DNA of 64,000 bases from Rubripirellula tenax (GTDB taxonomy: Bacteria > Planctomycetota > Planctomycetia > Pirellulales > Pirellulaceae): contig NZ_SJPW01000003.1 in assembly GCF_007860125.1 (NCBI RefSeq), forward strand, positions 248,001-312,000, given 5' to 3'. The translations under genes were made by a program, and so were the position numbers. The notes beneath the pieces are model-generated. The model was given only the letters and a program-made list of their open reading frames with translations. It made no database searches and had not been told where the DNA came from. This document shows positions 2,000 to 21,375 of the stretch, piece after piece (position 1 is the stretch's first letter; the number at the start of each line of letters is the position of its first letter).

Positions 2000-2061
2000 C
2001 CTGACACGCTGGAAACAACGCCTCGCCCCATTCACGCTCGACGTTTGAAAGAAGACTTGCC

Positions 2062-4234: not shown

Positions 4235-6421
4235 TCAGTTCGGCTGACTGTTGTCGGTCACCTGATTCCAGAGCGATCGAATCATGAGGCTAAGACGTTC
4301 GTAGGCGGTGTCATCTCGATAGCCGAATGATGCCCATACCCGTGAACCCACGGCAAGCGATTCGTTGGAACGGGTCGGGCCAACGTCGACGCCAAGACGC
4401 GCACGAAAGTAGGGTTCAAGCAGTCTCGCAGAGTTGCGGTCTTCGTCCTTATCGGAAAAACGATCGCGATGAACGGCCATCGGGCCGCCCATCGTTGCCG
4501 CTAACGCGGGGTCAGCCAACTGATCGCTTGCCCGCGGCTCGATGCGATCCAGCGTGGCGCCGATCTGCTGGTTGTCAGCCGCGATCAACGATACGTGTGT
4601 GGCGATCAGCGGCCGAACATCGTCAACCATCTGTTGGGGGACCATCGCAATGACTTCTTTGTCGTCGCCACCGGCGATGACGGCCACCAGATCGCCGGAC
4701 TTCACATGCGTGCCAACACGTTCATCTAAATGGGGCGCAACAACGCGACCCGATCGACTCGCCACGATCGTCAACGCGTCGACCTGTGTCTTGAAATTGG
4801 CGACTTGATCCGCCAGGGAATGGTTCCGTTGTTCCAGGATGATGCGAGCCCCGTCGTCTCGCGATTCAATGGCCTGGCGAATACGAATCGCGTTCTGCTC
4901 CATCGTCAGCTTCAGTGCCGACCAACGATGAACTAAATCACGGTTCTCTAGCTCGATCATGATGTCGCCTCGACGAACATCCTCTCCGTCCCTGACGTGA
5001 ATCTTTGCGACCAAGCCTTCGCTTCGCGTCCGAATCATTGTTTCGGGTCGATACCGCACAACGGCGGCGGCGAAATTCGATGTAGGAATCGGCACCACAA
5101 GAACGGTCGCCAATAGGGTGATGCCCAGGAGTGATCCGATCACGCATCCCCGCACACATCGAATCGGATCGACTCGCTGCCACCGCGCCGCGTGATTCCA
5201 CCATCGCTTCAGCGGCGTCAGGATGGCCAACAAAACGGCGATGACCGCCAACACAACACCCGCGCCGGCGAACATCGATGAGGCGACGATCGAAAGCGAC
5301 ACACAAACGACCACGCGCCAGACCATCGCCAATGCGCCGTACACAAAAACGACCCCGCGGCGCCATCCGCGAAGACCGCCCTGAACCGTTCGTTCACCCC
5401 AAATCAATCGGTTGGCCACGCGAGCGAGCGACTCCGAACCCTCCATCGCAAGATTCGGTACGTCGATCAAATCAGCGAAAATGAAGTAACCATCGAAACG
5501 CATCAAAACGTTTGCGTTGAAAACGATAGTCGAGACGCCTGCCATGACGACGATCTGCGACATCATCGATCGTGTCTGTATCGAATCGGAAACAAATGCC
5601 CATACCATCACTGCCAACGCCGCGACCACCCACTCGACGTACATCCCCGCGGCGGCGACCAGAATACGACTGCGTCGCGAGTTCATACGCCAACAACTCG
5701 ATACATCCACGTAAGCCAACGGAGCGAACAGGACGAACACCAATCCCGATTCGCCGACTTCGCCACCTTGGCGATGGCAAGCTACCGCATGGGCGACTTC
5801 GTGGATCACTTTTAACGCGACCCATACGATCAGCATCCAAAGCCAACTCGATGGCGAAAACACTTCGGACGATGTTTGGACGAACTCACTCCACCGAGTG
5901 AATAAGACAACCCATGCGAGTGCGATGAATAAGATGGATGACACCACCCATGCGGGTGACGCAAGCGGACCAAGCACGGATGCGATCCACGTCAATACGC
6001 GTTCGCTGTGTCGAATGGGGACTTTGATCCAGAACGGGTTCCACCGTGCCCACGACGAAGCCTCGGTCGTCTTGCGCCGCGGAGAAAAATCGCGAGTGGT
6101 GACGTGCGATTGAGATGGCAAACGGGCCAATTCGTTCGCGATCAACCATCGAACGATTGCCGTCGATTGTTCTAACGACAACGCTTGTTTGCCAAGCATT
6201 GACGCCGCCAGTCCGCACGCTTGTGCGATCGTCGTATCGCCATCGATCAACGATACGAAAACGTACTCTTCGTGGCCGATCCGAAAGAACCGGTGTAGCG
6301 ACGGAATCTCGATTCGATAGACACGTTGCCCGCGTTCACGCACCGGCCAGAACCGAATATCGTCCGCCAGCCGCACTTTTTGCTCAGCCAAATCGATCGT
6401 GTTGGGGTCTCGAATTTCCAA
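4235..6421 (-). CDS. M50 site-2-protease-like / HlyD fusion membrane protein
   Basis: This 728-residue protein is the last gene of a five-gene minus-strand operon. The N-terminal 100 residues form a soluble domain. Next comes a polytopic M50 peptidase region with the zinc motif HEVAH at residues 207-211 and the third-ligand motif NANVLMRFDGY with Asp310. After further membrane spans, the last 250 or so residues are a HlyD/biotinyl-lipoyl adaptor domain (SEGLVAKIHVRDGEDV, coiled coil, SGRVVAPHLDERVGTHVKSGD). The zinc ligands look intact, so proteolysis is plausible. Such fusions are known from genomes as peptidase M50/HlyD proteins without a firm function. The start lies 3 bases after the preceding stop. 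It may process or gate the exported giant protein (inference). Confidence 0.82.
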   Translation of the reverse strand: MEIRDPNTIDLAEQKVRLADDIRFWPVRERGQRVYRIEIPSLHRFFRIGHEEYVFVSLIDGDTTIAQACGLAASMLGKQALSLEQSTAIVRWLIANELARLPSQSHVTTRDFSPRRKTTEASSWARWNPFWIKVPIRHSERVLTWIASVLGPLASPAWVVSSILFIALAWVVLFTRWSEFVQTSSEVFSPSSWLWMLIVWVALKVIHEVAHAVACHRQGGEVGESGLVFVLFAPLAYVDVSSCWRMNSRRSRILVAAAGMYVEWVVAALAVMVWAFVSDSIQTRSMMSQIVVMAGVSTIVFNANVLMRFDGYFIFADLIDVPNLAMEGSESLARVANRLIWGERTVQGGLRGWRRGVVFVYGALAMVWRVVVCVSLSIVASSMFAGAGVVLAVIAVLLAILTPLKRWWNHAARWQRVDPIRCVRGCVIGSLLGITLLATVLVVPIPTSNFAAAVVRYRPETMIRTRSEGLVAKIHVRDGEDVRRGDIMIELENRDLVHRWSALKLTMEQNAIRIRQAIESRDDGARIILEQRNHSLADQVANFKTQVDALTIVASRSGRVVAPHLDERVGTHVKSGDLVAVIAGGDDKEVIAMVPQQMVDDVRPLIATHVSLIAADNQQIGATLDRIEPRASDQLADPALAATMGGPMAVHRDRFSDKDEDRNSARLLEPYFRARLGVDVGPTRSNESLAVGSRVWASFGYRDDTAYERLSLMIRSLWNQVTDNSQPN

Positions 6422-6424
6422 CGA

Positions 6425-7924
6425 TCACCACCCCGTCGCGCGGCGAATGGCGAAGAACGACTTGTGAAATAGATTCCACCCCAACGCATGCCGATCACTC
6501 AGGATTACAGCACGCCCTCGCATCCCCGGACGCAGCAAGTGTTCCGGGTCGTCGACCATCACTTCGGCGACAAAGACATTGTCTTGATCGCGAAGTTCCG
6601 CTCGCGGATGAACCATTGCGATCGATCCATCAAACCGTCGATTCGGAAGCGAGTGAACATAAAACTGCACCGGCATCTCACGGCGAACCAACGAGTAGTC
6701 GGATTCGGGTACCGCCAGCTCAACTCGCATCTTGCCCAGTGGCGCGATCTCGAACAACGTTTCTCCTCGCGTCATGGGCATGCCTTCCGACTCTTTCCAA
6801 TCGCCGGTCACAACGATTCCCGTCGTCGGGCTCCGCACTTCCAAGTGTGACCGCTTGTGTTCTAGAAGATCTTTTTGCAGTTGAAGTCGCTCGACTTCCA
6901 ACGCTGCGATCTTGCTGCCTGCAAAGTCATGTTCGACCATCAATCCTTTTCGCTCCTGAGCCGCTTGGTGCAGTTCGGCTTGAACACTTGCGAGCTCATA
7001 ATCAATCTCGCGCGGGTCAATGGTGGCAAGCAAATCGCCTTCGTTGACCTGATCACCCGGTCGAACACTCGACGATTTCAGGAGTCCGTCAAAACCCACC
7101 GCAACGAACCGCCGAAGCACCGGTTGCAACTCGAGGCCGACGTGGATGCGATAGTGCGTCGGAAACAACATTATCATCAATAACGCAGCGATCGCACAAA
7201 CGACTACCGTCTTGCGTGACCGCCTGAACGTATCGATCAATGTCCGCACCCGTCGCTCGACGGGCGAGGGCATGCATCGATGCAGAGCCGATAACTTTGC
7301 ACCAACGAGAGGACCGATCGTATGAAAGAAAGAACGATTTTGGGCGATGCTGTCGACGTCTTGTTTTGACGCGACCAGAACCCCGCAGACGAGTCCGTCG
7401 AAATTGGTCAGCGGAACCGCAATGACCGAAGCAAACGCCTCCGACGATGCTAGTTGACGGAGGGTCAACAATGCGTGCCGATCTTCCGTCCGCTGCGCCG
7501 GCCAATTCGCGATGCTTTCTCGAGTCGCAACTTCTTCGGCGACTGCCTCCAACATACGACCGCGATCACTGCGCCGAAGATCGGCGATCGTTACACCGTC
7601 GTCATTGGCGGACTGACCCACCACACGAAACGCCTCGCTGCCGGGTTGATTCGTCCAGGCGATCCAAACGTGATCCAACTTCAAGTGGACGGCGATCTGC
7701 GTGGCGAGTCCTACCGTTGCCGTATCAAAGTCGTCCGCGCGATCCAATTCGGACTGAATCTCAACGGCCGCTGCTAGCGTTTGCAACCGCCTCTGAATCG
7801 AATCGATCGTGGAATCGCTATCACGGCGTGCGGCACCCGGGACACGATCACCGACGGACGTCGTCGGAAAGGTCGCGTGATTCGGATCTGACATACCGTC
7901 ACGAGATGCCGCAGGAACTGACAT
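6425..7924 (-). CDS. GAF domain-HlyD fusion, inner-membrane adaptor
   Basis: This 499-residue protein has a predicted cytoplasmic GAF-like domain (about 60-215), a single membrane span near 240-258 (TVVVCAIAALLMIMLFPTHY) and a periplasmic HlyD-type membrane-fusion part. The latter shows the lipoyl half-motif VGFDGLLKSSSVRPGDQVNEGDLLATID, a coiled coil (about 305-355), the second lipoyl half and a beta-barrel. HlyD adaptors link inner-membrane exporters to TolC. A GAF domain on the cytoplasmic side would allow small-molecule or partner sensing. It sits between the plain HlyD gene (12-base gap) and the M50-HlyD gene (3-base gap). Met11 is an alternative start. Confidence 0.82.
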   Translation of the reverse strand: MSVPAASRDGMSDPNHATFPTTSVGDRVPGAARRDSDSTIDSIQRRLQTLAAAVEIQSELDRADDFDTATVGLATQIAVHLKLDHVWIAWTNQPGSEAFRVVGQSANDDGVTIADLRRSDRGRMLEAVAEEVATRESIANWPAQRTEDRHALLTLRQLASSEAFASVIAVPLTNFDGLVCGVLVASKQDVDSIAQNRSFFHTIGPLVGAKLSALHRCMPSPVERRVRTLIDTFRRSRKTVVVCAIAALLMIMLFPTHYRIHVGLELQPVLRRFVAVGFDGLLKSSSVRPGDQVNEGDLLATIDPREIDYELASVQAELHQAAQERKGLMVEHDFAGSKIAALEVERLQLQKDLLEHKRSHLEVRSPTTGIVVTGDWKESEGMPMTRGETLFEIAPLGKMRVELAVPESDYSLVRREMPVQFYVHSLPNRRFDGSIAMVHPRAELRDQDNVFVAEVMVDDPEHLLRPGMRGRAVILSDRHALGWNLFHKSFFAIRRATGW

Positions 7925-7936
7925 GAAATACCCGAA

Positions 7937-8848
7937 TTATCGAGTCGATGGTTCAGGCGAAACGACCGGCATCGAACGCGCCGATCGGTTGGCGGGCTCG
8001 CGAACCGTCAAATCCCAACGACAAACGACACCGCTGGGGACCTTTCGGTCTCGGTTGGGGATTCGCACCTTCACCGGTACGGACGCACTTTCGGGATCAG
8101 CCACCGGCGAAACAAATTCGATGATTCCATCGCATGTTTGTTCATCACTAGAAAAGCGAAGCGATACTTCTTGACCTGCGCGAATGCCGCCAATGTTGGC
8201 CATGGGCACGGAAAAGGTTGCTTTCAGTGAATCGAGTTCGACGATCCGCATCACGACGGGATCATGCGGCGAAACGAATTCACCGATTTCTTTGTTGATC
8301 TCGACCACGACACCGTCGATGGGAGATTCGATCCGTCGTTGATTGATTTGCGTTTTGACGCGTTCAAACTCCAACCGCCGAACCTCCAACTCTTCTTGCA
8401 CGTTTTGCATTCGAGCGGCGGCTTGATTGAAGTCGCCTTCCGATCGATCGAGCTCTCGCTGCGATGCGTTTCCCTGCGAATTAAGTTCACGATAGCTTTC
8501 GAGTTGCTTTCGACGGACAGCCAAGTCCGTTTCGGCCGCCATTTTTGAACCGGTGGCGTCTTTCGCGGCGCGGGCGAGTTCCAACGACGCTTGCAAGACA
8601 TGGTCTTCCAATTGGGCCAGCCATTGTCGCTGCGAAACGTCGTCTCCCTCGCGAACGTGAATTTTCTCGATCACACCTACTTCTGCCGCAGGCACGTCGA
8701 CAACACGAAGGGGTTCCGTGAACGCTTCGATTTCGGATCCTGAAGCGTTCCCAACCGTCAAGAGCAGGGCGGCAACGAAGCCCAGACCGACCAACTGCAT
8801 TTCGGTTGCAAAGGTTGGCTTGAATTCGTTTTTCGTCGTGATTCTCAT
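7937..8848 (-). CDS. HlyD/RND-type periplasmic adaptor protein
   Basis: This is a periplasmic adaptor of the membrane-fusion family, 303 residues from the chosen start. ATG at 8848 was chosen because AGGA lies 8 bases before it and the protein then begins just before a hydrophobic signal or anchor segment (LVGLGFVAALLLTVGNASG). The open frame extends to 8911, inside the SecA-like gene. Visible parts are a lipoyl half-motif (EVGVIEKIHVREGDDVSQ), a long coiled-coil hairpin, the second half (RIESPIDGVVVEINKEIGEF) and a beta-barrel/MP domain. It should span the periplasm between an inner-membrane partner and the TolC-like channel encoded two genes upstream. Confidence 0.85.
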   Translation of the reverse strand: MRITTKNEFKPTFATEMQLVGLGFVAALLLTVGNASGSEIEAFTEPLRVVDVPAAEVGVIEKIHVREGDDVSQRQWLAQLEDHVLQASLELARAAKDATGSKMAAETDLAVRRKQLESYRELNSQGNASQRELDRSEGDFNQAAARMQNVQEELEVRRLEFERVKTQINQRRIESPIDGVVVEINKEIGEFVSPHDPVVMRIVELDSLKATFSVPMANIGGIRAGQEVSLRFSSDEQTCDGIIEFVSPVADPESASVPVKVRIPNRDRKVPSGVVCRWDLTVREPANRSARSMPVVSPEPSTR

Positions 8849-8865
8849 TCTAGAAATCCTGAAGG

Positions 8866-10857
8866 TCAAAGTTGGATGCATCCGCGAGGTGAGCTCGCAT
8901 CGACATTCCATAGCTTTTCGTCGTCGTGGTCGGCGCGCAGCAGACGCATTCGCTGACTCGTTTGACGTCGTTGGAATTGGTGTTGAGCCTGGCGAATCGC
9001 TTCGTCAATGGCTTGTCGATCTTGTCGTTCACGGTGAGCGTATCGCTGGATCGATCGCGCGATCCAGGGAGCGTCATTGACGATCAAGTCATCGTCGGCC
9101 GAAACATAGAATCTTGCCGTCCCCGGGTCTCCGCACCGTGCCCCGCGTCCAATCAGTTGGCGGTCGACCCGAGCCAGCGAATGGTGTTCGACGACGATGA
9201 CGTGCAAACCACCGATTGCGACGACGGCAGGATCCACCAGGATGTCCGTTCCACGGCCTGCCATGTTCGTTGCAACCGTGATGCATCCGCGGCGACCGGC
9301 CTTCGCTATGACCGAGGCTTCGTCCTCGTCTTGAACGCCGTTAAGAACCTGACACACGGACCCTCGCTCGACGATCGCGGCGGCGACTTCCCAACTTGCG
9401 GAAATACTGAGCGTCCCGATCAAAACGGCGCGTCCTTGATCGGCCAACTTGATCGCGTCGTGGGCAATCGCGTTGCACTTCTCCGATCGAGTCTTCGACA
9501 GGTGCGTCGGAAGTATCGTCCGCTTCGTCGCGGTTCGCGTGGGCAAGCAAACGACGGGCAAACCGTAGACGGAACCAAGCTCGTGCCGGCACCCATCCGC
9601 CGTGCCCGTCATTCCACCCACGAATGCATAGTTTCGGAAGAATCGCTGACGTGTGATTCTGGCAATGGGTTGCGACTCGGGCTCGACCGTTAACCCCTCA
9701 CGCATCTGAATCGCTTGATGCAAACCTCCCGACCAAGAACGATCGGGATGAATCCGCCCCGTTGACGAATCCAAAAGGTGCAACTGGCCGTCACGAACAA
9801 TGTAATGGACATTGGATCGGTAACAATATTTTGCCCGCAGCGCGAGGACCACATAGTCGTGCCATGGTCGCTTCAACTTCGGATGGACCACCGCCGCGGT
9901 ATTTTCGTAGGCATCGTGATAGCCCACATCGGTAAGGTCGATCGCATTCCCGTTGGAAACGGTGAAATCACGCCCGTTCAAGAGCCGATCGGACCAGCGC
10001 ATCGCTTCGGCATGAATGCACGCGTCCGAAGCCTCGCCCGTTTCGCTACTGCTAAGTAAGAGCGGTGACACCGCGTCATCAATCAACACTTGGTCGATCT
10101 CGTCGACGATGGCAACACTCAATCCCCTTTGCAACCGGCTTTCGCTTCCGTCGTGTCCGCTCAATCGAGCCAGTGTGCGGTCACCCAGTTCAAGATGCAC
10201 CGCATCTCCCAACGCCACTTGGTCACGCAGATAGTCGAAACCGAACACGTGTCCGGCCGCATAGGTGATATCCGCGGCGTACGCGTCGCGACGATCCGCG
10301 GCGGCATCAGCATCGTTGATCACCGATACCGTCGCGCCCAAAGCGGCGAAGACTCTTTCCATTCGGCTCTGGTCGCGGTTCGCCAGGTAGGCGCTCGGCG
10401 TTGCAACGTGGACCCCCTGTCCGTCAATCGACTTTGCGAACGCGGCGGCCGCGGCCGACAACGTCTTTCCCTCGCCCGTTTGCATTTCGACAACGGCACC
10501 TTGGGCGACGCAGATTGCGCCAGAAACTTGCGTATCGAACATCTCCAACGAAAGATGCTGACGAACGGATTCCACCATCCCGGCCAACGCCAACACCAAC
10601 AATGCATCGCGTTGATCGTTTGCCGATGCTTGCTTCGATGTCCGCTCGGCCGTCACCGACATGCGGCGCAACCGGTGGCCGTGGTCCAACAGATCGGCCG
10701 CCGACACACCGCGAAGCGTTCGCGATACATCCTTGACTTGACTCAGCAAGGACGCGATACGATCGGGCGAATCCAATTGACGTTGTTTCTGATGCGCAGC
10801 AACCAAGTGATCCTTCACGGATTTTGTTTCAACGAAGTTCTGCAAGAACCCGATCAT
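8866..10857 (-). CDS. Compact SecA-like translocation ATPase (accessory SecA paralogue)
   Basis: This 663-residue protein is clearly related to SecA. It has Walker A TGEGKT at 127-132, the Walker B-like DEID at 252-255 in a SecA-type context (VDEIDQVLIDDAVSPLLLS), GMTGTA at 415-420, ATNMAGRGTDIL near 529-540, and QLIGRGARCGDPGTARFYVS near 567-586 in place of the canonical RGRSGRQGDPG. It is some 200 residues shorter than housekeeping SecA: after residue 590 only about 70 residues remain, so most of the helical scaffold/wing and the zinc-binding tail are missing. It overlaps the TolC-like gene by 4 bases (ATGA). A substrate-dedicated motor for the divergent giant protein is the simplest inference; it is not the essential SecA. 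Confidence 0.88.
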   Translation of the reverse strand: MIGFLQNFVETKSVKDHLVAAHQKQRQLDSPDRIASLLSQVKDVSRTLRGVSAADLLDHGHRLRRMSVTAERTSKQASANDQRDALLVLALAGMVESVRQHLSLEMFDTQVSGAICVAQGAVVEMQTGEGKTLSAAAAAFAKSIDGQGVHVATPSAYLANRDQSRMERVFAALGATVSVINDADAAADRRDAYAADITYAAGHVFGFDYLRDQVALGDAVHLELGDRTLARLSGHDGSESRLQRGLSVAIVDEIDQVLIDDAVSPLLLSSSETGEASDACIHAEAMRWSDRLLNGRDFTVSNGNAIDLTDVGYHDAYENTAAVVHPKLKRPWHDYVVLALRAKYCYRSNVHYIVRDGQLHLLDSSTGRIHPDRSWSGGLHQAIQMREGLTVEPESQPIARITRQRFFRNYAFVGGMTGTADGCRHELGSVYGLPVVCLPTRTATKRTILPTHLSKTRSEKCNAIAHDAIKLADQGRAVLIGTLSISASWEVAAAIVERGSVCQVLNGVQDEDEASVIAKAGRRGCITVATNMAGRGTDILVDPAVVAIGGLHVIVVEHHSLARVDRQLIGRGARCGDPGTARFYVSADDDLIVNDAPWIARSIQRYAHRERQDRQAIDEAIRQAQHQFQRRQTSQRMRLLRADHDDEKLWNVDASSPRGCIQL

Positions 10858-12749
10858 GGTAGCGGCCCCTGATCGGATTTTGTGCTAGCCACAGGCAACG
10901 AGTCTTCGACTCGAAGCAGGACTCCCATCGTGTGCCGCAACTGGACCCACGACATCGCATACGAAGTCTGCGCTGCGACGAATCCACCTTCTTCATTTGC
11001 AAGACGCTGCTGTGCGTCCAACAAATCCTCGATCAACAAAACCGCCGACTCGTTCGGATCGGGCAACCACTTCCAACGTTCTTTCAGGTACGCCACCTCC
11101 CGTCCAGCCGCGTCGATCGCTTGCTTCTTAGCAATCATTTCTTGAAATGAAGTTCGTGTTTCGCGAACGGCGACTTCCACTTCGGTGAACGCTTCTTCGG
11201 CAACCTGTTGAAACTCGAATACCGATCGAGTCAGTTCCAGTCGATTGCGATCGAGCCTTGCTTCCGCGGCTCGATTCCCGACCGGTCGTTCAAACAACAG
11301 ACCAGCCGCATAGCTTGGTCTGCCGTCGGAGAACTGATTGACGAAAGCCCCGAAAGCGTCGTTGTTGGTATCCAACCCGGCAACATAGGTGCTAAGGATC
11401 AAATCGAGTCGCGGCAAAACTTGATTCTTCGCGACACCCACCCCAGCCGACGTCGCCTGGACCTTCCGAATCGCGCCGGCAATGTCCGAACGGTTGTCGA
11501 GGGCCGTCAGTGTGGCCTGGCGTGTCGACAAAGCAACGGCTTCGGCCAACGGTCGTTCGGCGGGCAGAACTTCCCATCGCGCCGATTGAATCAGTCGCGG
11601 ATCACCGGTCAGCAATCTTAATTCGGCCTGCGCATTTCGAATCGCAGTTTCGCTTCGAACCAGATCCGATCGACGTGACGCCACTGCGGCTTCCGCCCTT
11701 AGAATCTGGCGTTGAAAGGAGTCCACTTCGCCACGAGCACGAAGAATCGTCGCCAACTCGGCCGCGCTATCGAGCAACCGACTACGTTGCAACCAATTCG
11801 CACGCGCTTGATACAAGTTCCAATAGGCCCGCGCGACATCGACCAGGTGGTCTTCTAGATCGCTGCGTGTTTCGGTGGTAGCCAACTTGACATCAATGTC
11901 CGCCAACAGCACGCGAATGTTGTTGACCGCGCGGCCGCGATCTTTCATCAACGGCTGAGTTACGTTCAACTCCATCCGCGTCGTCCCTTGTGGATTTGGG
12001 ACAAGGAACGTCGAGTTGTTGTCTTGAAAGCCGCCACGCTGAACAAGTTCCCATTCTGCGCCGGACCGATTCTTCTTTCGCAAACCGGCCGACGACGAGA
12101 ACTTCTCGTCTCGAAAACGTCCGAACGCCGACCCCGTGGTCAACAGACTTCCGATCGGTTCGTTCGTATCCGCGAATTTTCCTTCCACGAATGCGAGCGA
12201 GTCGAAGTTGGCGTCCGCAATCACCAGATCTCTTCGTCGGATCCCTGGATCGGTCAAGATGCCTCGCACATAGGGTGACGAAGAGATTGCGGTTTGTGCC
12301 AGTGTCGCCACGTCCACGGCAAGGCATTCCGGCGAAAAGCCAAGGGGCTGTGTCAGTAACGCATCCCACCATGCATCCAGATGCACGAATTCCGATGGGG
12401 CGATGGACTCAAACGGTATCGTTGCGTCGGGCGCATCGGGCAATCCGTCCGCTCGGGCAAGGTATGAATTCAATTGCCCTCGAAAGGGCCCCGGCGAAAC
12501 GGCGGGTGGAATATCGGCGAGCGGAACGCCAGAAACCGCCAAACCGGAAGGTGGCATCCTATTTTGAACATCCGTCAGCGGGGCATTCGGAAGCGCGTGC
12601 TGCCAGACTTGTTCGGAAATCGCCGACGGTGTTGAAGTCGAAAGTCGTCCGGAACTATCGAGTGTTTGCGCAGCTGCATTCGTTGCACCCGAGATGGATG
12701 CAATAGCGGTCAGTCCGAGAATCAACTGATGATGAAGCCGCGGTTTCAC
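10854..12749 (-). CDS. TolC-family outer-membrane efflux/secretion channel
   Basis: The chosen start is GTG at 12749 (GGGAA 8 bases before), because it places a good signal peptide (KPRLHHQLILGLTAIASISGATNAAAQ) at the N terminus. The frame also stays open to an ATG at 12902, but that extension has no signal-like sequence. The 631-residue product has the helical outer-membrane efflux protein layout: two helical repeats rich in Ala/Arg/Glu, LNVTQPLMKDRGRAVNN typical of the TolC entry strand, and long coiled-coil stretches (VVDVARAYWNLYQARANW-like and the tail LEDLLDAQQRLANEEGGFVAAQTSYAMSWVQL). It heads the operon with SecA-like, HlyD, GAF-HlyD and M50-HlyD proteins and is divergent from the giant LEPR-XLL gene. 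Confidence 0.85.
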   Translation of the reverse strand: MKPRLHHQLILGLTAIASISGATNAAAQTLDSSGRLSTSTPSAISEQVWQHALPNAPLTDVQNRMPPSGLAVSGVPLADIPPAVSPGPFRGQLNSYLARADGLPDAPDATIPFESIAPSEFVHLDAWWDALLTQPLGFSPECLAVDVATLAQTAISSSPYVRGILTDPGIRRRDLVIADANFDSLAFVEGKFADTNEPIGSLLTTGSAFGRFRDEKFSSSAGLRKKNRSGAEWELVQRGGFQDNNSTFLVPNPQGTTRMELNVTQPLMKDRGRAVNNIRVLLADIDVKLATTETRSDLEDHLVDVARAYWNLYQARANWLQRSRLLDSAAELATILRARGEVDSFQRQILRAEAAVASRRSDLVRSETAIRNAQAELRLLTGDPRLIQSARWEVLPAERPLAEAVALSTRQATLTALDNRSDIAGAIRKVQATSAGVGVAKNQVLPRLDLILSTYVAGLDTNNDAFGAFVNQFSDGRPSYAAGLLFERPVGNRAAEARLDRNRLELTRSVFEFQQVAEEAFTEVEVAVRETRTSFQEMIAKKQAIDAAGREVAYLKERWKWLPDPNESAVLLIEDLLDAQQRLANEEGGFVAAQTSYAMSWVQLRHTMGVLLRVEDSLPVASTKSDQGPLP

Positions 12750-13053
12750 GTACGTTTCCCAATCGAAAGTAGCGGTCAACACTGCGCACAAGTGTTGAGT
12801 CGCCGAGTGCACAGTCGTTTCAATCGGCAAACTCACCTCAGCGTCTTCAATCCGAATATCCGCAAAACTTGCCATCACGACCGGTTCAATCGAAAAAGTC
12901 ACTAGCCATCGCCGTTGGCGACGTTCATTCCTCCACTTTTGCGTGAAACATTCCGTCGTGTGGCTTTGCGTCTCCTAGATTTCCTTCGGACGATCAAGTC
13001 TGGCTCGCGGGGGGCCAACTTCGTTTCAAGTATCCGCTGCCCACCAGACCGAC
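12750..13053. promoter_or_regulatory. Divergent intergenic region between the TolC-like operon and the giant LEPR-XLL gene
   Basis: This 304-base stretch separates two divergent transcription units and must hold promoters for both if the GTG start of the TolC-like gene is right. The one clear element is a 7-bp dyad, CAACACT-7 nt-AGTGTTG, at 12777-12797, just upstream of the TolC-like start. It could be an operator or a leader hairpin. No convincing -35/-10 pair or strong Shine-Dalgarno was found before the giant gene. If the longer TolC-like frame (to 12902) is used, the intergenic gap shrinks to 151 bases. Confidence 0.4.
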
Positions 13054-16000
13054 ATGTCAAACAACCGAAACGACTGGCAGCGACGCCGGATGACCATCGA
13101 CCGATGGATCACCCAGGCGCGTCGTCTGATCGGATCGGGTGACGCCGGGCGGAACGCACGTCCATCAACAAATCTAGGACGCTTGGAACCGCGTATTCTC
13201 TTCAGCGCTACGCCGATCGATGTGGCATCCATGGGAATCGGCGCCGACACCGCCATGGTGATGGAGCTTCAACCGCAGTCGATCGACGCCGAAGTATCTC
13301 AGTCGCAATCAACAACGATCGACCAATTGGCCTCGCCCCAAACGGCAAAGCCCTACGAATTGATTTTCGTGGATTCCAGCGTCACCGACCTCAACCAAGT
13401 ACTCGACGACTTTGCCGCCTCCGATCGAAACTTTGAAGTTTTCGTCTTGGGCGCCGATCGCGACGGGATTGACCAGATCACGGAAATACTTGATTCGCGA
13501 AGCGAAGTCGCCGCGGTGCATTTATTTTCGCACGCCGAAAATGGAAACGTACGTCTCGGGTCCGCCAACCTGGGTGCGACGAATCTCTCGGGTTATGCGT
13601 CGCAAATTGCTTCATGGCAATCCTCGCTGAACACGGGCGCCGACATTCTGATTTACGGTTGCGATTTGGCAGCAACCGATAACGGGCGATATTTGATTGA
13701 AGCGATCGGTTCGTTGACCGAAGCCGACGTCGCCGCCAGCGATGACGACACGGGTCATTCGTCCTTTGGCGGTAATTGGAACCTCGAATTCACAACCGGA
13801 TCCATCGAGACAGAGATCGCGACCAGTGCCCAACTTCAACAAGAGTGGCTCGGAAAACTCAGTACGATTACGGTCACAACCTACAACGACATCATCAATG
13901 CGGGTGACGGATTAACGTCGCTTCGAGAGGCGATCATTGCAGCAAGCAGCGGCGATACGATCATCCTGGGGACCGGAACGTATACCGTTTCAATTTTAGG
14001 CACCGGCGAGAACAACTCGTTAACCGGCGACTTCGACATCAACAAGAGTCTCACTATTTCCGGAAACGGGGCTGGCAATACGATCATCGATGGCGGTGCC
14101 CTCGATCGGGTTTTCCATATCGATAACGCCTCCGCGATCGTTGCGTTCTCGGACGTAACAATCCAAAACGGATTCACAACCGGCAACGGTGGCGGCGTTT
14201 ACATCGAGGGCGGCACTGCGACGCTGGATCGTGTGGTCATCCAGGGCAATCGTGGTGCTTTCGGCGCCGGAATTTATGTCAACAGCAGTGCGACACTGAA
14301 CCTTACCGACGTCATCATCCAAAACAATGGCGACGGCGGAACCACGCGAGGCGGTGGAATTGAATCGGCCGGAACAGCGAATTTGCTGAGAGTGACATTC
14401 AGCGGAAACCAAGCCGGTTCGGGCGGAGGGATCTACACGACCGGAACGCTGGATCTGACCAACGCGACGCTCAGCAACAACAGTGCCAGCTCGTCGGGTG
14501 GCGGTGTCTACAGCACCGGTACGACAACGATCACAAATTCGACGCTCGCCTTCAACAACGCTGGTAATGCCGGCGGCATTCGCCGGCAAGCTGGATCCGT
14601 CAGCATCGTCAACACGATCATCTCAGACAACACTGTGACTTCGGCAAACGCCGACGTTCAGGGATCTTTTAGCAGCCTTGGGAACAACTTAATCCTGGAC
14701 GTTACCGGAGGCAGCGGATTCGGTGGGACCGACGTGGTGGGCTCGAGTGCGAATTTGGGCCTGCTCGCCGACAACGGTGGTTTCGGGAAAACTCACGCGA
14801 TCACGACTTCCAGCCTTGCCTATAACGCGGGAACCGCAACGGGCGCACCTGCCACCGACCAACGCGGCGTCGAACGCACCTCTCTTGTCGATATCGGTGC
14901 ATTCGAACGACGCGAAATGAGTGCAACCTCTGAATTTCGCGTCAACACGACAACCGGATCGGTCCAAGAGACAAGCGGCCAAGATCGCGGAAGCCAACAA
15001 TCGGTCGCGGTGGCAGACGACGGCAGCTATGTCGTCGTTTGGTCAAGTTTGAATCAGGACGGCGACGGTTGGGGCGTCTTCGCAAAACGTTTTGATTCAT
15101 CCGGAACGGCGTTAACAGGCGACATCACCGTCGCCGATCTACCAGCAAACAATCAAAAATGGGCGCGTGTCGGGACGGCTGATGACGGCAGCTTCGTTGT
15201 GACTTGGACGCTGACCAATGCCCTCGATGTGCCGCAAGACGTGTACGCTCGGCGATTTGATGCCAACGGAGACGCGATTGGCACTAATTTTGTGGTGAAC
15301 ACCACGACAGGCGGCATCCAATCCAACTCAAGCATTGCGGTCAACGGTAGCGGCACGTTCATCGTCGCTTGGGAAGGCAACGGCGTAGGTGACAATGATG
15401 GAATTTTCTACCGTCGATTCAATGCGAACGGAACAGCGATCGACGGCACCGAAGTACGCGCCAACTTTGACAATATTGGTGACGAAAACGAAGCGAGCGT
15501 CGCTATCAACGATAGCGGACAATTCGCAATCACGTGGGAATCCGCAGGCGAAATTTATCTACGTCAATTTACCGCTGGTGGAACTCCGATTCCACCGACC
15601 AGTGACATCTTGGTTGACAGTACCGCTGCCGCAGCAATGGGGTCAACCGTAGAGATTGACTCGCTCGGTCGCACCGTGGTCCTGTATCGAACCAACGGAT
15701 TCGCTGGACTTGGCGCTGGTGTCTGGGGGCGGGCTTTTCACGCCGATGGGACCGAGCGATTGGGACTCTTCCAAGTCAGCAATCAATCGTTCAGTTCGGA
15801 CAACACGCAACCTTCGATTGCGATGGCAGACAACGGCGACTTCATCGTCGTATACCACGGCGACGATAACGGAGACGGAAACGGAAGCTCGGTGAAGTTC
15901 CGTCGATACGATGCCGACACCGGCGCAATCGCCACTGCTTCGCAGGTCAACATCAGCACCACAGGCGACCAACAGTTTTCATCCGTTGCCATGCTAGACA

Positions 16001-19000
16001 TGGACAACTTTGTTGTGACATGGAGCGGCAACGGCACACAGTCTGGGAACACAGACACCAGCGGAGTATTCGCACGTCAATTCCATCTCGAAGCACCGAC
16101 CTTGGACCTTGACTCGAATAACAGTTCGGGCGCCACCGGTATCAATTTTTCGAGAACCTTCTTCAATGGTGGCGGAGCAGTCTCGGTGGCCGATACAGAC
16201 GCCACGATCATCGACTCTGACAGTACGCATCTGCAATCGCTAACGATAAGGATCACGGATCGCCAAAACGGTGCCAGCGAAGTGCTTGCGGCCATCACGT
16301 CGGGTACTTCGATCACGGCAAACTATACCGCCGGAACGCTCACGTTATCCGGTTCAGACACGACCGCGAACTACCAACAAGTGCTTCGCACGGTCACCTA
16401 CAACAACAGTAATAATCCGGCGACTGGCACCAGTCGCACCATCACGTTCGTTGCCAGCGACGGGGTTTCGGTAAGCGAAATCGCAACGACCACACTGGCC
16501 ATTTCCATGCCGGTCAACCAGGCTCCCACCGACATTGCGATATCCAATTCGACGGTCAACGAAAACACAAACACAGCAAGCGGATTCAGTGTCGGCGTAC
16601 TCTCGGCGACGGACGCAGACTCAAGTACTCCATTCACCTGGGCAGTCGTCGGTGGTGCCGATCAAGCTCGCTTCTCAATTGGCGGGGCATCCAACAACCA
16701 ATTGATGCTAACCGACGGCGTTCTGGACTACGAAGCAAAAGCTTCCTATGAAGTGGACGTTCGCGTCACCGATTCCAGCGGAAATCCCTTCGTCGAAACG
16801 CTAACCATTTCGGTCATCGACATCAATGAAGCACCCACCGTTTCGCTAAGCGTGGCCACGACACTTTTGGCCGAGGATACCGATACAACTTCCGCCATCG
16901 TCGTTTCGTCGATCACCGTGACGGATGATGCCTTGGGTACCAATACACTGACTCTTTCGGGCGATGATGCGTCGCTGTTCGAAATTGTTGGCTATGAACT
17001 AAGGCTAGTCGCGGGAACCTGGCTAGACTTCGAAACGAACAGTGCACTTGATGTCACCGTGAACGTCAATGACTCGACCATTGGCGGTACCCCAGATGAC
17101 ACTGCCTCACATACGATCACGATCTCTGACGTGAACGAGGCGCCCAGCGTAGCGTTGACGCCCGTCGTCGTGACGTTGAGCGAAGACACCGACACGACTT
17201 CCGCGATCGTGGTTGCGACGATCGTAGTCAGTGATGATGCTCTCGGCAGCGCGACACTTTCGCTGGCCGGATTGGACGCGGCCTTTTTCGAGATCGTTGG
17301 CAGTGACCTGCGTTTGAGGGCTGGCGCGAGCCTGGATTATGAGACGAATCCGACGCTTAACGTAACCGTACAAGTCGACGACGCCACGATCGCTGGATTC
17401 CCCGACGACTCGGCCAGCCATAGCGTGACAACCACCGACGTGGTTGAGATTCCGACGACAACCCTGAATCCGTCGGACGATACCTATCTGGATAAAGACA
17501 ATCCGGACTTCAACTATGGAGTTTCCACAACGCTGATCGTTGATCACTCGGGCGGCAGCATCGGCGATTCGCGAATCTTGCTGAAATTCGATTTCAGCAG
17601 CATCCCGGTGGGTGCCACCATCACCGGCGCCACGTTGACGATGCAGGCAAACGCCGGTGCGGGAACTTTCCGAATCGGCGTCTATGAAGTCACCGAGGCC
17701 TGGGTCGAAGGCAACCAAAACGGGTCAGTTGGCTTCCCAAGCTGGGATGATCGCACGAGCACGAACGCGTGGAACGGCGGAACATTCAATTCGACCGCCG
17801 TGGCAACCTTTGATGCAACGACAACTGGACAACACGCCTGGAACGTCACCTCGCTCGTCCAAAGTTGGATCACGGGATCCACCGTAAACAACGGCGTAAT
17901 CATTGGAAGCGAAGCTGGTGGCGGAAATTCATATACGTATTCCAGTCGCGACGGCGGATCGCCGCCTGAACTACAACTTTTCTATACCGTCACTAACGCA
18001 GCACCAACCGACATCGCACCCAATACGCTCTCGGTTGCCGAGAATACCGACTCGACTCTTGGCGTCAACCTTGGCACTTTAACCGCCACGGATTCGGACG
18101 CCGGCGAGACGTTCACTTGGGCAATTGTCGGCGGCACTGATGAAACGAAGTTTACGATCAACGCGTCCAATGAACTTATCTTAAGTGATGGGATGTTGGA
18201 CTTCGAACGACAAGGTTCGTATTCCGTTGTCGTCCGCGTGATCGACTCGGCAAACAATATCTATGATGAAACGCTTACGGTCAGCATTACCGACCAAAAC
18301 GAAGCTCCATCAGTCTCGTTGACGCCAGTGATCACGAACATTGACGAGGACAGCGACACCACGTCCGCGATTGTCGTAGCCACCATCTCGGTAACCGACG
18401 ATGCCCTAGGAACCGAAACACTGTCGCTGTCGGGCGATGACGCGGCCATGTTCGAAATCGCAGGCAATCAGCTTCGACTTATCGCCGGGGCATCCTTGGA
18501 CTTCGAAACAAACGCTTCGCTTGACGTATCCGTCAATATCGACGACGCGACCATCCCCGGCAATCCCGACAACTCTGCTTTGCACTCGATGACCGTCGGC
18601 GACACGATTGAAACCGACCCGGTCGTTGCAACCAGTGATACATACACTTTCGACGAAGATACGACATTTGATTCGTCGACGCAGTGGTTCGACGCGAACT
18701 GGTCCAATCGACGGACGCTTTCGTTTGACAACCTGAATCAAGCAAGCAACTTGACCGACATGCCGGTCTTGATCCGCATCGACGCGACGCGGATCGACTA
18801 TTCCAAGACACAAAACGCAGGCCAAGACCTTCGATTTGTTGACGGCGACGGTGTACTGCTAGCCCACCAAATCGAATCCTGGAACGAAGCAGGCAGTTCG
18901 TACGTTTGGGTGAAAGTTCCGACCGTCAACCAGAGTTCAAACACAGACTTTGTTTGGATGTACTACGGAAACGCAGGCGCCGCCGACGGCCAAAATACCG

Positions 19001-21375
19001 CGACCGTTTGGTCCGACGGTTATACCGGCGTCTATCACTTTGATTCAACGACGAACGACGCTACGGCGGTCGGTCGACACGGCGTCGATTCGGGCACGAC
19101 GAATGCGACGGGCATCGTTGGGGGATCGCGATCGTTTGATGGCGTTAACGACGTCGTAAACTTGGGATCTTCCGCCGCGTTTGACAACCTTTTCGCGGGC
19201 GGGGCCACCGTATCGGCGTGGATCAACCCGAGCGGTTGGGGTGAAAATGGCTACGGTCGCATTTTCGATAAGAGCAATACCGTCTCACCGACGACGTCCG
19301 GTTGGGACCTTTCACTGGACTCAGCCAATCAGTCGCTGATCTTTGAACACGGGTTCTCTGGTGGCATCGGCCGATGGAGAGTCACACCGAACTCCATCCA
19401 ACTGAACCAATGGCAGTCCGTTTCGGTAACGTTCGATAGTTCGTCCAGTGCCAACAATCCGATCATCTATATCAATGGTATCCAACAAACCGTAACGGAG
19501 AACGTGGCGCCCGTCGGAACCAGCGGTAACGATGCCGCGTTCAATCTTCTGGTCGGAAATCAGGCTGCGAACAATCGCACGTTCGAAGGACGCATCGACG
19601 AAGTACGAATTCAAGACGGCATTCAATCGCCCGACCGAATCGCTGCCGACCATCGATCCACGAACAGTGCGTTTGTCCGATTCGGATACGAACAGGATGC
19701 CGCTGGCGTGCTCGGAAACGACATTGCCGATTCTGACAATACGTTGGTCGCAACGTTGGTCAGTGGACCAAGTTTTGCCAGTTCGTTCTCGCTCAATGCC
19801 GACGGCACGTTCACCTATACGCCCATCGTCAACTTTGTCGGCGGGGATTCGTTCACCTACAGCACGACCGACGGTTTTTCGACCTCCAATACCGTCACCG
19901 TCAGCTTGAACGTTACCGCAATCAATGACACTCCGGTGATCACCGGTATCGCTGACCGAACGACTCAGGACAAAGTCACCGTACAACCATTCTCGACGGT
20001 GACTTTCTCTGAACTGGATGGCGAAGACGTGACCGTTACCATCACCGTGGCAGGCGGTGACATCTACGGCCAGTTCACATCCACGTCTCTTGCGTCATCG
20101 GGATTCACAAAGATCGCGGCCGGCCAATATCGACTTCTCAGCACGACCGAAACGGCTGCAACCGCGGCGATCCGACAACTGGCGTTCGTTCCCATCGAGA
20201 ACCAGTCAGCGCCCGGAAGTTCGACCGTCGCCACCATGACTGTGACATCCGACGACTCGGTCTCACCAACATCACAATCCATGAATCTGTCGATCGTTTC
20301 CGTCAATGATGCACCGACGTCGGTAACGCTCGACGACGTCTTCGTCGATGAAGAAAGCAACGGTGCCATCGTCGGCAACCTATTGGCAACGGACCCCGAC
20401 TTGGGTGACAACCACACGTACTCCGTTGATGACGCTCGGTTTACCGTCGTGTCGGGAGTTCTGAGGTTGAAACCGACCTTTGCGCTCGACTTCGAAACCG
20501 AACCAAGCATCGATGTCATCGTGACAGCAACCGACGACGGCGGCCAAACGACTCAGTCTTCGTTCACTGTCCAGGTCGTCGACCAAGTTGAACCTCCAGC
20601 GGCTTCGACAACAAATCCACCGACTCCCCCGGTGACAGTAATCATACCGTCATTCCAACCGTCGACGGACGATCCAACGACGTCAACCGCCACCGAGAAA
20701 GATTCCGATCGCGACGAAGACTCCAGTTCCGAATCATCCAAAGCAGATACGGCAAAGACGCCTAACGTAGTCGGGGGCGTCAACCCGGCAAACCAACAAT
20801 CTGATGACGACGACGCTGGCGATGATGTACTGAGTTCGTTCGTTGCACCTACGAATGTTCTCGAAGCGGAATTCGAATCGCGAGATGCTGACGAAGCTGT
20901 GGCCTTGTTGGCGAATGAGGCGGACGGGTCGAGCGATGGCAACGACGCGAGTTCTCGATCCGTAACCAACGAAAACACCAATCAAGGCAACCGGGGCTCG
21001 GCACTGAACGTGGCATCATCCTTTACGGCCGCGCAGTTGAACTACATGGTCATGACCAAACCTGGCGCAATGTGGGATCAATTGGATGAGCAGCGAGGCA
21101 AGATTGAATCGCAAATCCAAGGCGACCTGATCGTCGTTGGCGCGACCGGCGCCGCCGCATCCAGCGTGACCGTCGGTATCGTCGCATGGGCGATTCGCAG
21201 CGGCGTTCTTGCATCGGGATTGTTGGCCCAGATGCCAGCTTGGCGAGCCGTTGACCCCTTGCTGATCATGCAAGGCGGCGGCGAAAACTCTGACGACGAG
21301 TCTCTCGAAGAACTGATGTCACGTCGAAGCGAGGCGCTCGACCAACAAGACGTCGACAGCGCAGAACCAACTTAG
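13054..21375 (+). CDS. Giant LEPR-XLL / DUF4347 / cadherin-like exported surface protein
   Basis: This 2773-residue mosaic protein starts with a basic N terminus and the planctomycete LEPR-XLL motif (RLEPRILFSA, residues 43-52). Order: DUF4347 (about 100-265; HLFSHAENGNVRLG, ILIYGCDLAATDNG); a SLREAI-type parallel beta-helix (about 275-620); W/G-rich propeller-like repeats (about 620-1010); cadherin-like repeats (about 1150-1465); a DNRLRE domain (about 1470-1645); more cadherin-like repeats (1650-1850); DUF2341 (about 1875-1975); a LamG/concanavalin domain (about 1995-2200); a VLGNDI..F(T)YTP Ig-like domain and further repeats to about 2515. An acidic Ser/Thr/Asp stretch and a hydrophobic segment with a short acidic tail (about 2690-2773) end it. 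The layout fits adhesion or glycan binding at the cell surface. There is no classical cleavable signal peptide, consistent with the dedicated exporter encoded divergently. Confidence 0.93.
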   Translation: MSNNRNDWQRRRMTIDRWITQARRLIGSGDAGRNARPSTNLGRLEPRILFSATPIDVASMGIGADTAMVMELQPQSIDAEVSQSQSTTIDQLASPQTAKPYELIFVDSSVTDLNQVLDDFAASDRNFEVFVLGADRDGIDQITEILDSRSEVAAVHLFSHAENGNVRLGSANLGATNLSGYASQIASWQSSLNTGADILIYGCDLAATDNGRYLIEAIGSLTEADVAASDDDTGHSSFGGNWNLEFTTGSIETEIATSAQLQQEWLGKLSTITVTTYNDIINAGDGLTSLREAIIAASSGDTIILGTGTYTVSILGTGENNSLTGDFDINKSLTISGNGAGNTIIDGGALDRVFHIDNASAIVAFSDVTIQNGFTTGNGGGVYIEGGTATLDRVVIQGNRGAFGAGIYVNSSATLNLTDVIIQNNGDGGTTRGGGIESAGTANLLRVTFSGNQAGSGGGIYTTGTLDLTNATLSNNSASSSGGGVYSTGTTTITNSTLAFNNAGNAGGIRRQAGSVSIVNTIISDNTVTSANADVQGSFSSLGNNLILDVTGGSGFGGTDVVGSSANLGLLADNGGFGKTHAITTSSLAYNAGTATGAPATDQRGVERTSLVDIGAFERREMSATSEFRVNTTTGSVQETSGQDRGSQQSVAVADDGSYVVVWSSLNQDGDGWGVFAKRFDSSGTALTGDITVADLPANNQKWARVGTADDGSFVVTWTLTNALDVPQDVYARRFDANGDAIGTNFVVNTTTGGIQSNSSIAVNGSGTFIVAWEGNGVGDNDGIFYRRFNANGTAIDGTEVRANFDNIGDENEASVAINDSGQFAITWESAGEIYLRQFTAGGTPIPPTSDILVDSTAAAAMGSTVEIDSLGRTVVLYRTNGFAGLGAGVWGRAFHADGTERLGLFQVSNQSFSSDNTQPSIAMADNGDFIVVYHGDDNGDGNGSSVKFRRYDADTGAIATASQVNISTTGDQQFSSVAMLDMDNFVVTWSGNGTQSGNTDTSGVFARQFHLEAPTLDLDSNNSSGATGINFSRTFFNGGGAVSVADTDATIIDSDSTHLQSLTIRITDRQNGASEVLAAITSGTSITANYTAGTLTLSGSDTTANYQQVLRTVTYNNSNNPATGTSRTITFVASDGVSVSEIATTTLAISMPVNQAPTDIAISNSTVNENTNTASGFSVGVLSATDADSSTPFTWAVVGGADQARFSIGGASNNQLMLTDGVLDYEAKASYEVDVRVTDSSGNPFVETLTISVIDINEAPTVSLSVATTLLAEDTDTTSAIVVSSITVTDDALGTNTLTLSGDDASLFEIVGYELRLVAGTWLDFETNSALDVTVNVNDSTIGGTPDDTASHTITISDVNEAPSVALTPVVVTLSEDTDTTSAIVVATIVVSDDALGSATLSLAGLDAAFFEIVGSDLRLRAGASLDYETNPTLNVTVQVDDATIAGFPDDSASHSVTTTDVVEIPTTTLNPSDDTYLDKDNPDFNYGVSTTLIVDHSGGSIGDSRILLKFDFSSIPVGATITGATLTMQANAGAGTFRIGVYEVTEAWVEGNQNGSVGFPSWDDRTSTNAWNGGTFNSTAVATFDATTTGQHAWNVTSLVQSWITGSTVNNGVIIGSEAGGGNSYTYSSRDGGSPPELQLFYTVTNAAPTDIAPNTLSVAENTDSTLGVNLGTLTATDSDAGETFTWAIVGGTDETKFTINASNELILSDGMLDFERQGSYSVVVRVIDSANNIYDETLTVSITDQNEAPSVSLTPVITNIDEDSDTTSAIVVATISVTDDALGTETLSLSGDDAAMFEIAGNQLRLIAGASLDFETNASLDVSVNIDDATIPGNPDNSALHSMTVGDTIETDPVVATSDTYTFDEDTTFDSSTQWFDANWSNRRTLSFDNLNQASNLTDMPVLIRIDATRIDYSKTQNAGQDLRFVDGDGVLLAHQIESWNEAGSSYVWVKVPTVNQSSNTDFVWMYYGNAGAADGQNTATVWSDGYTGVYHFDSTTNDATAVGRHGVDSGTTNATGIVGGSRSFDGVNDVVNLGSSAAFDNLFAGGATVSAWINPSGWGENGYGRIFDKSNTVSPTTSGWDLSLDSANQSLIFEHGFSGGIGRWRVTPNSIQLNQWQSVSVTFDSSSSANNPIIYINGIQQTVTENVAPVGTSGNDAAFNLLVGNQAANNRTFEGRIDEVRIQDGIQSPDRIAADHRSTNSAFVRFGYEQDAAGVLGNDIADSDNTLVATLVSGPSFASSFSLNADGTFTYTPIVNFVGGDSFTYSTTDGFSTSNTVTVSLNVTAINDTPVITGIADRTTQDKVTVQPFSTVTFSELDGEDVTVTITVAGGDIYGQFTSTSLASSGFTKIAAGQYRLLSTTETAATAAIRQLAFVPIENQSAPGSSTVATMTVTSDDSVSPTSQSMNLSIVSVNDAPTSVTLDDVFVDEESNGAIVGNLLATDPDLGDNHTYSVDDARFTVVSGVLRLKPTFALDFETEPSIDVIVTATDDGGQTTQSSFTVQVVDQVEPPAASTTNPPTPPVTVIIPSFQPSTDDPTTSTATEKDSDRDEDSSSESSKADTAKTPNVVGGVNPANQQSDDDDAGDDVLSSFVAPTNVLEAEFESRDADEAVALLANEADGSSDGNDASSRSVTNENTNQGNRGSALNVASSFTAAQLNYMVMTKPGAMWDQLDEQRGKIESQIQGDLIVVGATGAAASSVTVGIVAWAIRSGVLASGLLAQMPAWRAVDPLLIMQGGGENSDDESLEELMSRRSEALDQQDVDSAEPT

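Follow-up and report, generated by a model that had tools for sequence, protein, structure and literature searches.

Giant proteins carrying an N-terminal LEPR-XLL tag are, judging from gene content, very probably the cargo of a module that encodes a compact SecA-like ATPase, a membrane protease fused to a HlyD domain, two further HlyD-type adaptors and a TolC-like channel. The module as a whole would act as a trans-envelope exporter for such giants, among them the 2773-residue protein of the locus described here, a reading to which we give a probability of roughly 0.55. The link to the cargo appears strong as far as genomics goes, and the export mechanism would be the most economical reading of the parts; we infer both the export and the anchoring of the giant. 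New in this work are the cargo proposed for a module published in 2015 and the pairing of a C-terminal hairpin in some giants with an adjoining sensor gene.

The module in the window and in its source genome

The window, i.e. the whole stretch of 64,000 nucleotides that was analysed, holds the features listed in Table 1. The original prediction had placed five tightly packed minus-strand genes beside a divergent giant gene, and all six open reading frames were found where it had put them; with the HlyD/MFP adaptor starting at position 8848, the 17-base gap given there is recovered. Searches against Pfam and NCBIfam identified SecA_DEAD (3e-73), the SecA P-loop (1e-38) and SecA_PP_bind (8e-19) in the SecA-like protein, OEP (2e-22) in the TolC-like protein and HlyD domains in three of the operon proteins. 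The giant yielded DUF4347 (1.5e-51), a laminin-G fold and repeats of the cadherin type. The claim that a SecA-like ATPase takes the place of an ABC ATPase in the operon was confirmed in both its parts, by these SecA domains and by the lack of any ABC protein among the five operon products in Pfam. The names M50 and GAF are upheld by family members and by an intact HExxH motif, and not by the Pfam scores of the window proteins themselves: the M50 match reached 26.2 bits against a cut-off of 27.2, and no GAF domain was found at E ≤ 0.1 in the GAF-type adaptor of the window, GAF being matched by 12 of 16 members of its family. The LEPR-XLL tag of the giant scored 15.9 bits (cut-off 17) in the domain search and 21.8 bits, above the cut-off, in the genome scan. 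In the window, the TolC and HlyD proteins begin with what looks, by eye, like a signal peptide. Also by eye, from translations, PilM/PilN/PilO-like genes and a secretin-like protein were recognized on the plus strand at positions 7-4221; they end 13 bases from the convergent M50-HlyD gene and lie outside the module as far as could be seen.

Table 1. Features of the locus (positions are those of the window unless a locus is named).
Feature	Position	Strand	Basis and remarks
M50-HlyD fusion, 728 aa	4235..6421	-	PqqD-like N terminus (from family), HExxH protease domain in the membrane, HlyD domain in the periplasm
GAF-type HlyD adaptor, 499 aa	6425..7924	-	Pfam; GAF from family, not own match
HlyD/MFP adaptor, 324 aa in longest ORF	7937..8911	-	Pfam/NCBIfam; likely start 8848 (22nd codon)
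Compact SecA-like ATPase, 663 aa	8866..10857	-	No counterpart to B. subtilis SecA beyond residue 613 or so
TolC/OEP-type outer membrane channel, 682 aa	10854..12902	-	Pfam
Giant LEPR-XLL/DUF4347 protein, 2773 aa, proposed cargo	13054..21375	+	Pfam/NCBIfam, genome scan
LEPR motif, giant residues 44-52, proposed N-terminal export signal	13183..13209	+	Motif
DUF4347 domain, giant residues 103-267	13360..13854	+	Pfam
C-terminal hydrophobic hairpin, giant residues 2690-2739	21121..21270	+	Sequence comparison
Hairpin-subtype sensor, 833 aa	21445..23946	+	Conserved N-terminal part; HisKA-HATPase-REC-Hpt output; 69 bases past giant
Response regulator, HD-type (HD_5) output	24044..25306	+	Next gene after sensor; possible partner of sensor
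Walker A-less SecA-like proteins at motor gene position	L080:16157-18109; L148:12131; L171:12049

The system had been called undescribed, a label that has to be given up because Kamneva, Poudel and Ward reported the gene set in 2015 (Kamneva et al., 2015, PMC4452313). The sections of that paper considered here describe a secondary SecA lacking all or most of the wing-scaffold domain, encoded together with an M50-type protein with HlyD, a GAF-HlyD protein, a HlyD protein and sometimes an OEP, with no ABC transporter; SecA as the ATPase and the M50 protein as a possible membrane pore were already proposed by the authors, who regarded the broader role of the module as unknown. None of the terms LEPR, DUF4347, cadherin, giant and cargo is used in its main text, where no cargo is named, and the PqqD-like domain, the cargo hairpin and the hairpin-linked sensor are absent from its examined sections. 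In the literature searched, from which subscription papers and preprints fell outside, no export route for LEPR giants was found.

The source genome (7.99 Mb) contains three copies of the module, and the gene set is more than a chance arrangement, because a second full copy and a third copy without SecA accompany the one in the window. In copy B (C1:315.7-335.4 kb) the genes for the giant, TolC, SecA, HlyD, GAF-HlyD and M50-HlyD are consecutive on one strand, and in copy C, which has no SecA, those for TolC, HlyD, GAF-HlyD and M50-HlyD diverge from that of a 9541-residue LEPR giant. Two more compact SecAs are encoded away from any module, one of them a single gene apart from a divergent 1382-residue protein with a LEPR-like start, and further M50-HlyD relatives without SecA are present on C2, C4 and C12. 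The canonical SecA is encoded separately from the module copies. The strict LEPR motif was present in seven of the eight DUF4347 proteins of this genome, the eighth carrying a variant.

Tag, protease hub and motor of the proposed exporter

The features of the tag were derived from 47 distinct N termini in the fetched loci, selected by the strict motif itself. They follow the pattern L/M-E-x-R-x-L/M-hydrophobic-S/D/A/N-A/G. It lies some 41 residues into the protein and is preceded by a stretch in which Lys+Arg make up 19%; in 46 of the 47 the best 15-residue hydropathy in the first part was at most 1.74. With this low hydropathy, these N termini look unlike those of ordinary Sec signal-peptide proteins. 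The basic N terminus with its LEPR-XLL motif may be a targeting signal that stands in for a Sec signal peptide, and it would amount to a new N-terminal export signal.

Recognition of such a signal would take place in the cytoplasm, and a candidate for it is the PqqD-like domain, a type known from RiPP recognition, in the M50-HlyD protein. That protein would serve as the inner-membrane hub and process the cargo, either by removal of the leader or by later release. PqqD was matched at the N terminus of 8 of 18 M50-HlyD family members (E ≤ 0.1, best 1e-7), with no match in the window member, whose residues 32-401 scored 146 bits against a daptide-type membrane protease family (cut-off 300). HExxH and the distal Asp ligand are invariant in the 18-row alignment, and among 133 M50-HlyD proteins HExxH[AG] is kept in 132 and accompanied by the distal motif in 130. 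The HlyD part matches the folds of MexA and MacA. The three HlyD-type adaptors would then form a periplasmic tunnel to TolC, through which the giant would leave with its N terminus first.

The compact SecA, which retains the motor and preprotein-binding domains and lacks the part past the start of the scaffold helix, would push the unfolded chain. Its predicted structure, with a mean pLDDT of 87.5, superposes on the substrate-engaged SecA of B. subtilis (6itc) over 585 residues at 2.5 Å, and the aligned ranges of profile and model stop at residue 606-613 of the B. subtilis protein. The region past residue 613 or thereabouts holds the helical wing and the two-helix finger that engage SecY. How a SecA without the SecY-engaging part could drive a polypeptide is a question that the module raises. 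In the tree, the window SecA groups with the SecAs of similar planctomycete loci, the closest among the rows compared being a Rubripirellula SecA (49%), and the compact SecAs from loci that were not picked via M50 sit nearer the canonical SecAs; the deep branching order is unsure because of long branches, and the rows L070 and L074, labelled canonical, are compact SecAs in extended frames. Two plasmid proteins named prepilin peptidase in RefSeq (L232:23038-25062 and L234:22105-24102) are compact SecAs, with 752 and 753 bits in the SecA-like profile.

The motor could also work along a more conventional path. In a route like that of SecA2, which we consider rather unlikely, the compact SecA and ordinary SecYEG would carry the giant across the inner membrane, HlyD and TolC would serve only for passage through the outer membrane or for retention, and M50 would act as a maturation protease. 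The SecA homology is clear and includes the preprotein-binding domain, models and structures of SecA and SecA2 score closely, and the genome gave a single match to SecY and no second one, a single SecYEG that the compact SecA could use. Against this path stand the absence of the SecY-engaging region and the tagged N termini themselves, 46 of 47 of which lack a hydrophobic core like that of a signal peptide.

The motor is not universal. A SecA gene was seen beside 38 of the best 80 of 593 M50-HlyD loci, a lower bound, and the SecA-like copies of L080, L148 and L171 are strongly diverged, score low and have no Walker A; L079, a weak match, L185 and L224 likewise fail the strict Walker pattern. 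The many loci in which no SecA was seen, including one Azospirillum and one Thalassospira locus, both on plasmids, together with the three degenerate copies, would suit a scheme in which the giants are exported by different machinery, such as a type I system with an ABC protein. M50-HlyD and GAF-HlyD would then anchor or process them, with SecA in the role of chaperone or unfoldase. A LEPR-XLL giant published from Vibrio, described in the part of the source considered here as having C-terminal RTX and serralysin domains, could for that reason fit an ordinary type I route (PMC10868602). We find this scheme doubtful, since none of the five operon proteins of the window is an ABC protein and, among 83 compact SecAs, Walker A is kept in 77 and both Walker motifs, by the strict pattern, in 75.

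Association of the module with LEPR-XLL proteins

The original prediction had staked itself on the gene set recurring near giant proteins in other genomes, and a strong link with LEPR-XLL proteins was found across several phyla. Among 148 genomes of the phylum of the window, LEPR was above the cut-off in 24, M50-HlyD (up to seven candidates scored per genome) was present in 40, and 23 had both (Fisher, 3.5e-15; 2.7e-7 when collapsed to families). The sole LEPR genome without M50-HlyD, G087, has a match that is internal and not N-terminal, its position having been worked out by hand and those in the other 23 partly checked. One genome of this sample, G137, contains 23 LEPR-XLL matches, one of them in a frame of 10,951 residues, so that the module may serve many unlinked proteins. 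In the class of the Halomonas genome G163 (276 genomes, LEPR threshold E ≤ 0.001), LEPR was found in 22 genomes, M50-HlyD in 39 and both in 20 (Fisher, 1e-17); for G235 and G358, two LEPR genomes of this class, a repeat search gave partial HlyD-type matches and no full-length M50-HlyD. No LEPR match at threshold was found in 17 of the 40 module genomes of the phylum and 19 of the 39 of the class, which the low sensitivity of the 24-position LEPR model may or may not explain. In the control set, LEPR was above the cut-off in one of 14 genomes, that of Deinobacterium chartae, and in none at the stricter limit of the class sample.

Compact SecA was present in at least 31 genomes of the phylum sample, all 31 also positive for M50-HlyD; 30 of them were called by frame length alone, and the SecA of G003 (880 residues) owes its place in the compact count to its M50 neighbour alone. 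Nine of the 40 M50-HlyD genomes had no compact SecA by the criteria used, among the matches listed. The sole matches of G097 (a 695-residue frame at a contig edge) and G026 (769 residues) were treated as canonical SecA, the 831-residue SecA of G013 was left out of the compact count, and the frame of G057 holds one TGA.

The two partners are also neighbours. Of the 28 LEPR matches in the 20 double-positive genomes of the class sample, 13 are on the same contig as M50-HlyD, and all but one of them (12, in 11 genomes) lie within 15 kb of it. In 36 stretches of phylum genomes, mostly taken around M50-HlyD, nine had a large ORF with a LEPR-like start by a loose pattern. Alignment of M50-HlyD against species genomes gave 593 stretches, of which the best 80 were kept, so that this set is biased towards close relatives. 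Within it, GAF-HlyD was seen beside M50-HlyD in 75 loci, HlyD in 50 and TolC in 19, and a strict LEPR ORF flanked 24, all of them figures that are lower bounds because contigs end. Counting unassigned ORFs with a visible N terminus in these 80 loci, the strict motif occurred in 16 of 32 with at least 1000 residues, 4 of 97 with 600-999 and 2 of 357 with 300-599; it was also found in 3 of 2210 unassigned ORFs of 100-299 residues and in none of 278 module ORFs with a visible N terminus.

Many giants in the 80 loci are cut by the flank, and 22 of these genomes, hand-picked among non-planctomycete and non-verrucomicrobial loci, were searched whole. LEPR was above the cut-off in 19 of them, and by hand arithmetic on the coordinates the matching giant adjoins the module in 14, with frames of up to 14,390 residues. 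Among 22 compact-SecA loci chosen from SecA matches, a strict LEPR ORF was present in eight and a looser one in two. A further choice made by hand concerned 20 new loci, and L227, L228 and L230, which repeat loci of the source genome or of G144, did not enter the counts a second time.

M50-HlyD was present in 18 plasmid records, and in four of the seven examined a LEPR protein lies beside the module: the neighbour is named LEPR-XLL by RefSeq in the Pseudosulfitobacter and Thalassospira loci, and the motif was read in those of Methylosinus and Azospirillum. The Alisedimentitalea giant showed no LEPR at its annotated start, the frame of the Ensifer giant is cut before its start, and no giant was seen in the Rhizobium stretch. 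A SecA-like gene was found in five of the seven, split over two frames in Rhizobium.

Several other features of these loci were recorded. An open frame of at least 6633 residues fills L226:1-19900 (G022), and the module downstream of it has a degenerate SecA. Between the giant and GAF-HlyD, a small DUF3467 gene lies at L240:17324-17620 in Thalassospira and at L234:17708-18028 in Methylosinus, and may encode an accessory factor. SapC-family genes are present in the Pseudosulfitobacter module (L232:22224-23045) and divergent from the Alisedimentitalea giant (L236:2058-2501). The giants of L083, L086 and L095, beside modules where no SecA was seen, end in another short motif, read by eye as approximately W with A/G, a hydrophobic pair and R.

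A co-occurrence without any functional tie, arising from genome types or mobile islands common to LEPR giants and the module, would agree with phylogenetic non-independence, with the existence of plasmid-borne copies and with co-occurrence figures that compare LEPR and module genes only, yet it is very improbable given that the two are neighbours in more than one gene order and in several phyla, and given the closeness of 12 of the 13 same-contig matches and the significance that survives collapsing to families. Linking the module with LEPR giants, whose lengths run from some 1,000 residues to over 14,000, gives each of them a testable partner.

The hairpin subtype and comparison with known systems

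The 'special C-terminal module' attributed to the giant turned out to be a real hydrophobic hairpin, restricted to one subtype and found in three of the 148 phylum genomes, one of them borderline. It is common to the window giant, that of copy C, the relative G144, a Blastopirellula MAG and two Marinobacter. Profiles were built from five hairpins and five sensors, and the hairpin profile recovered three others from the fetched loci at adequate scores, namely the second Marinobacter, L221 and L176; in L176 the LEPR start and the hairpin end are carried by two separate, adjacent short ORFs. In all eight clear, non-redundant cases a sensor gene follows directly on the same strand, at distances from a one-base overlap to 258 bases; the three further hairpins constitute an independent test, and all three have the sensor. 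The borderline hairpin of G110 (L229; 0.003, with a stop in frame, and 0.0016), with no sensor match in its locus, was left out of the eight. The sensors share a homologous N-terminal part that looks membrane-bound, and their outputs vary: Pfam assigned HisKA-HATPase-REC-Hpt to the sensors of the window and of L139, GGDEF to that of L065 and GGDEF-HD to that of L100, and a GGDEF output was read by eye in L104. The sensor family has its ninth member in L100, located beyond the M50 gene, where the end of the giant is off the contig. Apart from the two genomes that served as profile sources, only the borderline match of G110 was found in the 148 phylum genomes, a rarity that rules out the hairpin as a general feature of LEPR giants. 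One Marinobacter hairpin had no match in plasmid or phage records, the hairpin alignment had none in viral contigs, and P0004 had no relative in viral contigs.

In the subtype of the window, the hairpin would leave last and may hold the giant in the inner membrane beside its dedicated sensor. A bolder reading, advanced only tentatively, is that of a distinct class of secretion system, a SecA-powered exporter ending in TolC through which LEPR-tagged giants would pass N terminus first, with the M50-HlyD protein as both channel and leader peptidase. For the subtype of the window it includes a speculative but specific and testable model in which the hairpin would stay parked in the inner membrane by the sensor, whose kinase, GGDEF or GGDEF-HD outputs would be interchangeable, making the giant a tethered antenna and the mirror image of LapA. 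Through the pairing of hairpin and sensor genes, a tie between signaling and a giant surface protein becomes open to testing.

Set against known systems, the window conforms to the module of Kamneva et al. (2015): its SecA_DEAD protein likewise lacks a full SecA_SW domain, an M50-type HlyD, a GAF-HlyD (GAF by family only), a HlyD and an OEP are present, and no ABC transporter was found with Pfam among six window proteins. The NCBIfam family LEPR-XLL (NF012209) corresponds to the N-terminal motif of the giant, which scored below its cut-off in one search and above it in another, and its listing names no export system. Type I secretion (HlyB-HlyD-TolC) has HlyD-type adaptors and a TolC-type channel in common with the window; it differs in coupling an ABC ATPase to the adaptor and in having a C-terminal signal, whereas the one proposed for LEPR giants is N-terminal. 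Accessory Sec systems (SecA2 and SecA2-SecY2) also have a second SecA with motor and preprotein-binding domains. SecA2 possesses a scaffold/wing region, which varies among SecA2s, whereas the window SecA ends near the scaffold helix; SecA2-SecY2 includes a second SecY, lacking in this genome; and, unlike in these systems, the window SecA is coupled to HlyD and TolC parts. By analogy, LapA-type adhesins, which are under cyclic-di-GMP control and have an N-terminal retention module cleaved by a LapG-type protease, would resemble the present locus in combining a giant repetitive surface protein, a tripartite exporter and an adjoining signaling gene. In contrast to them, the window operon includes no ABC protein, the leading end proposed here would be the N terminus and the putative hold the C-terminal hairpin.
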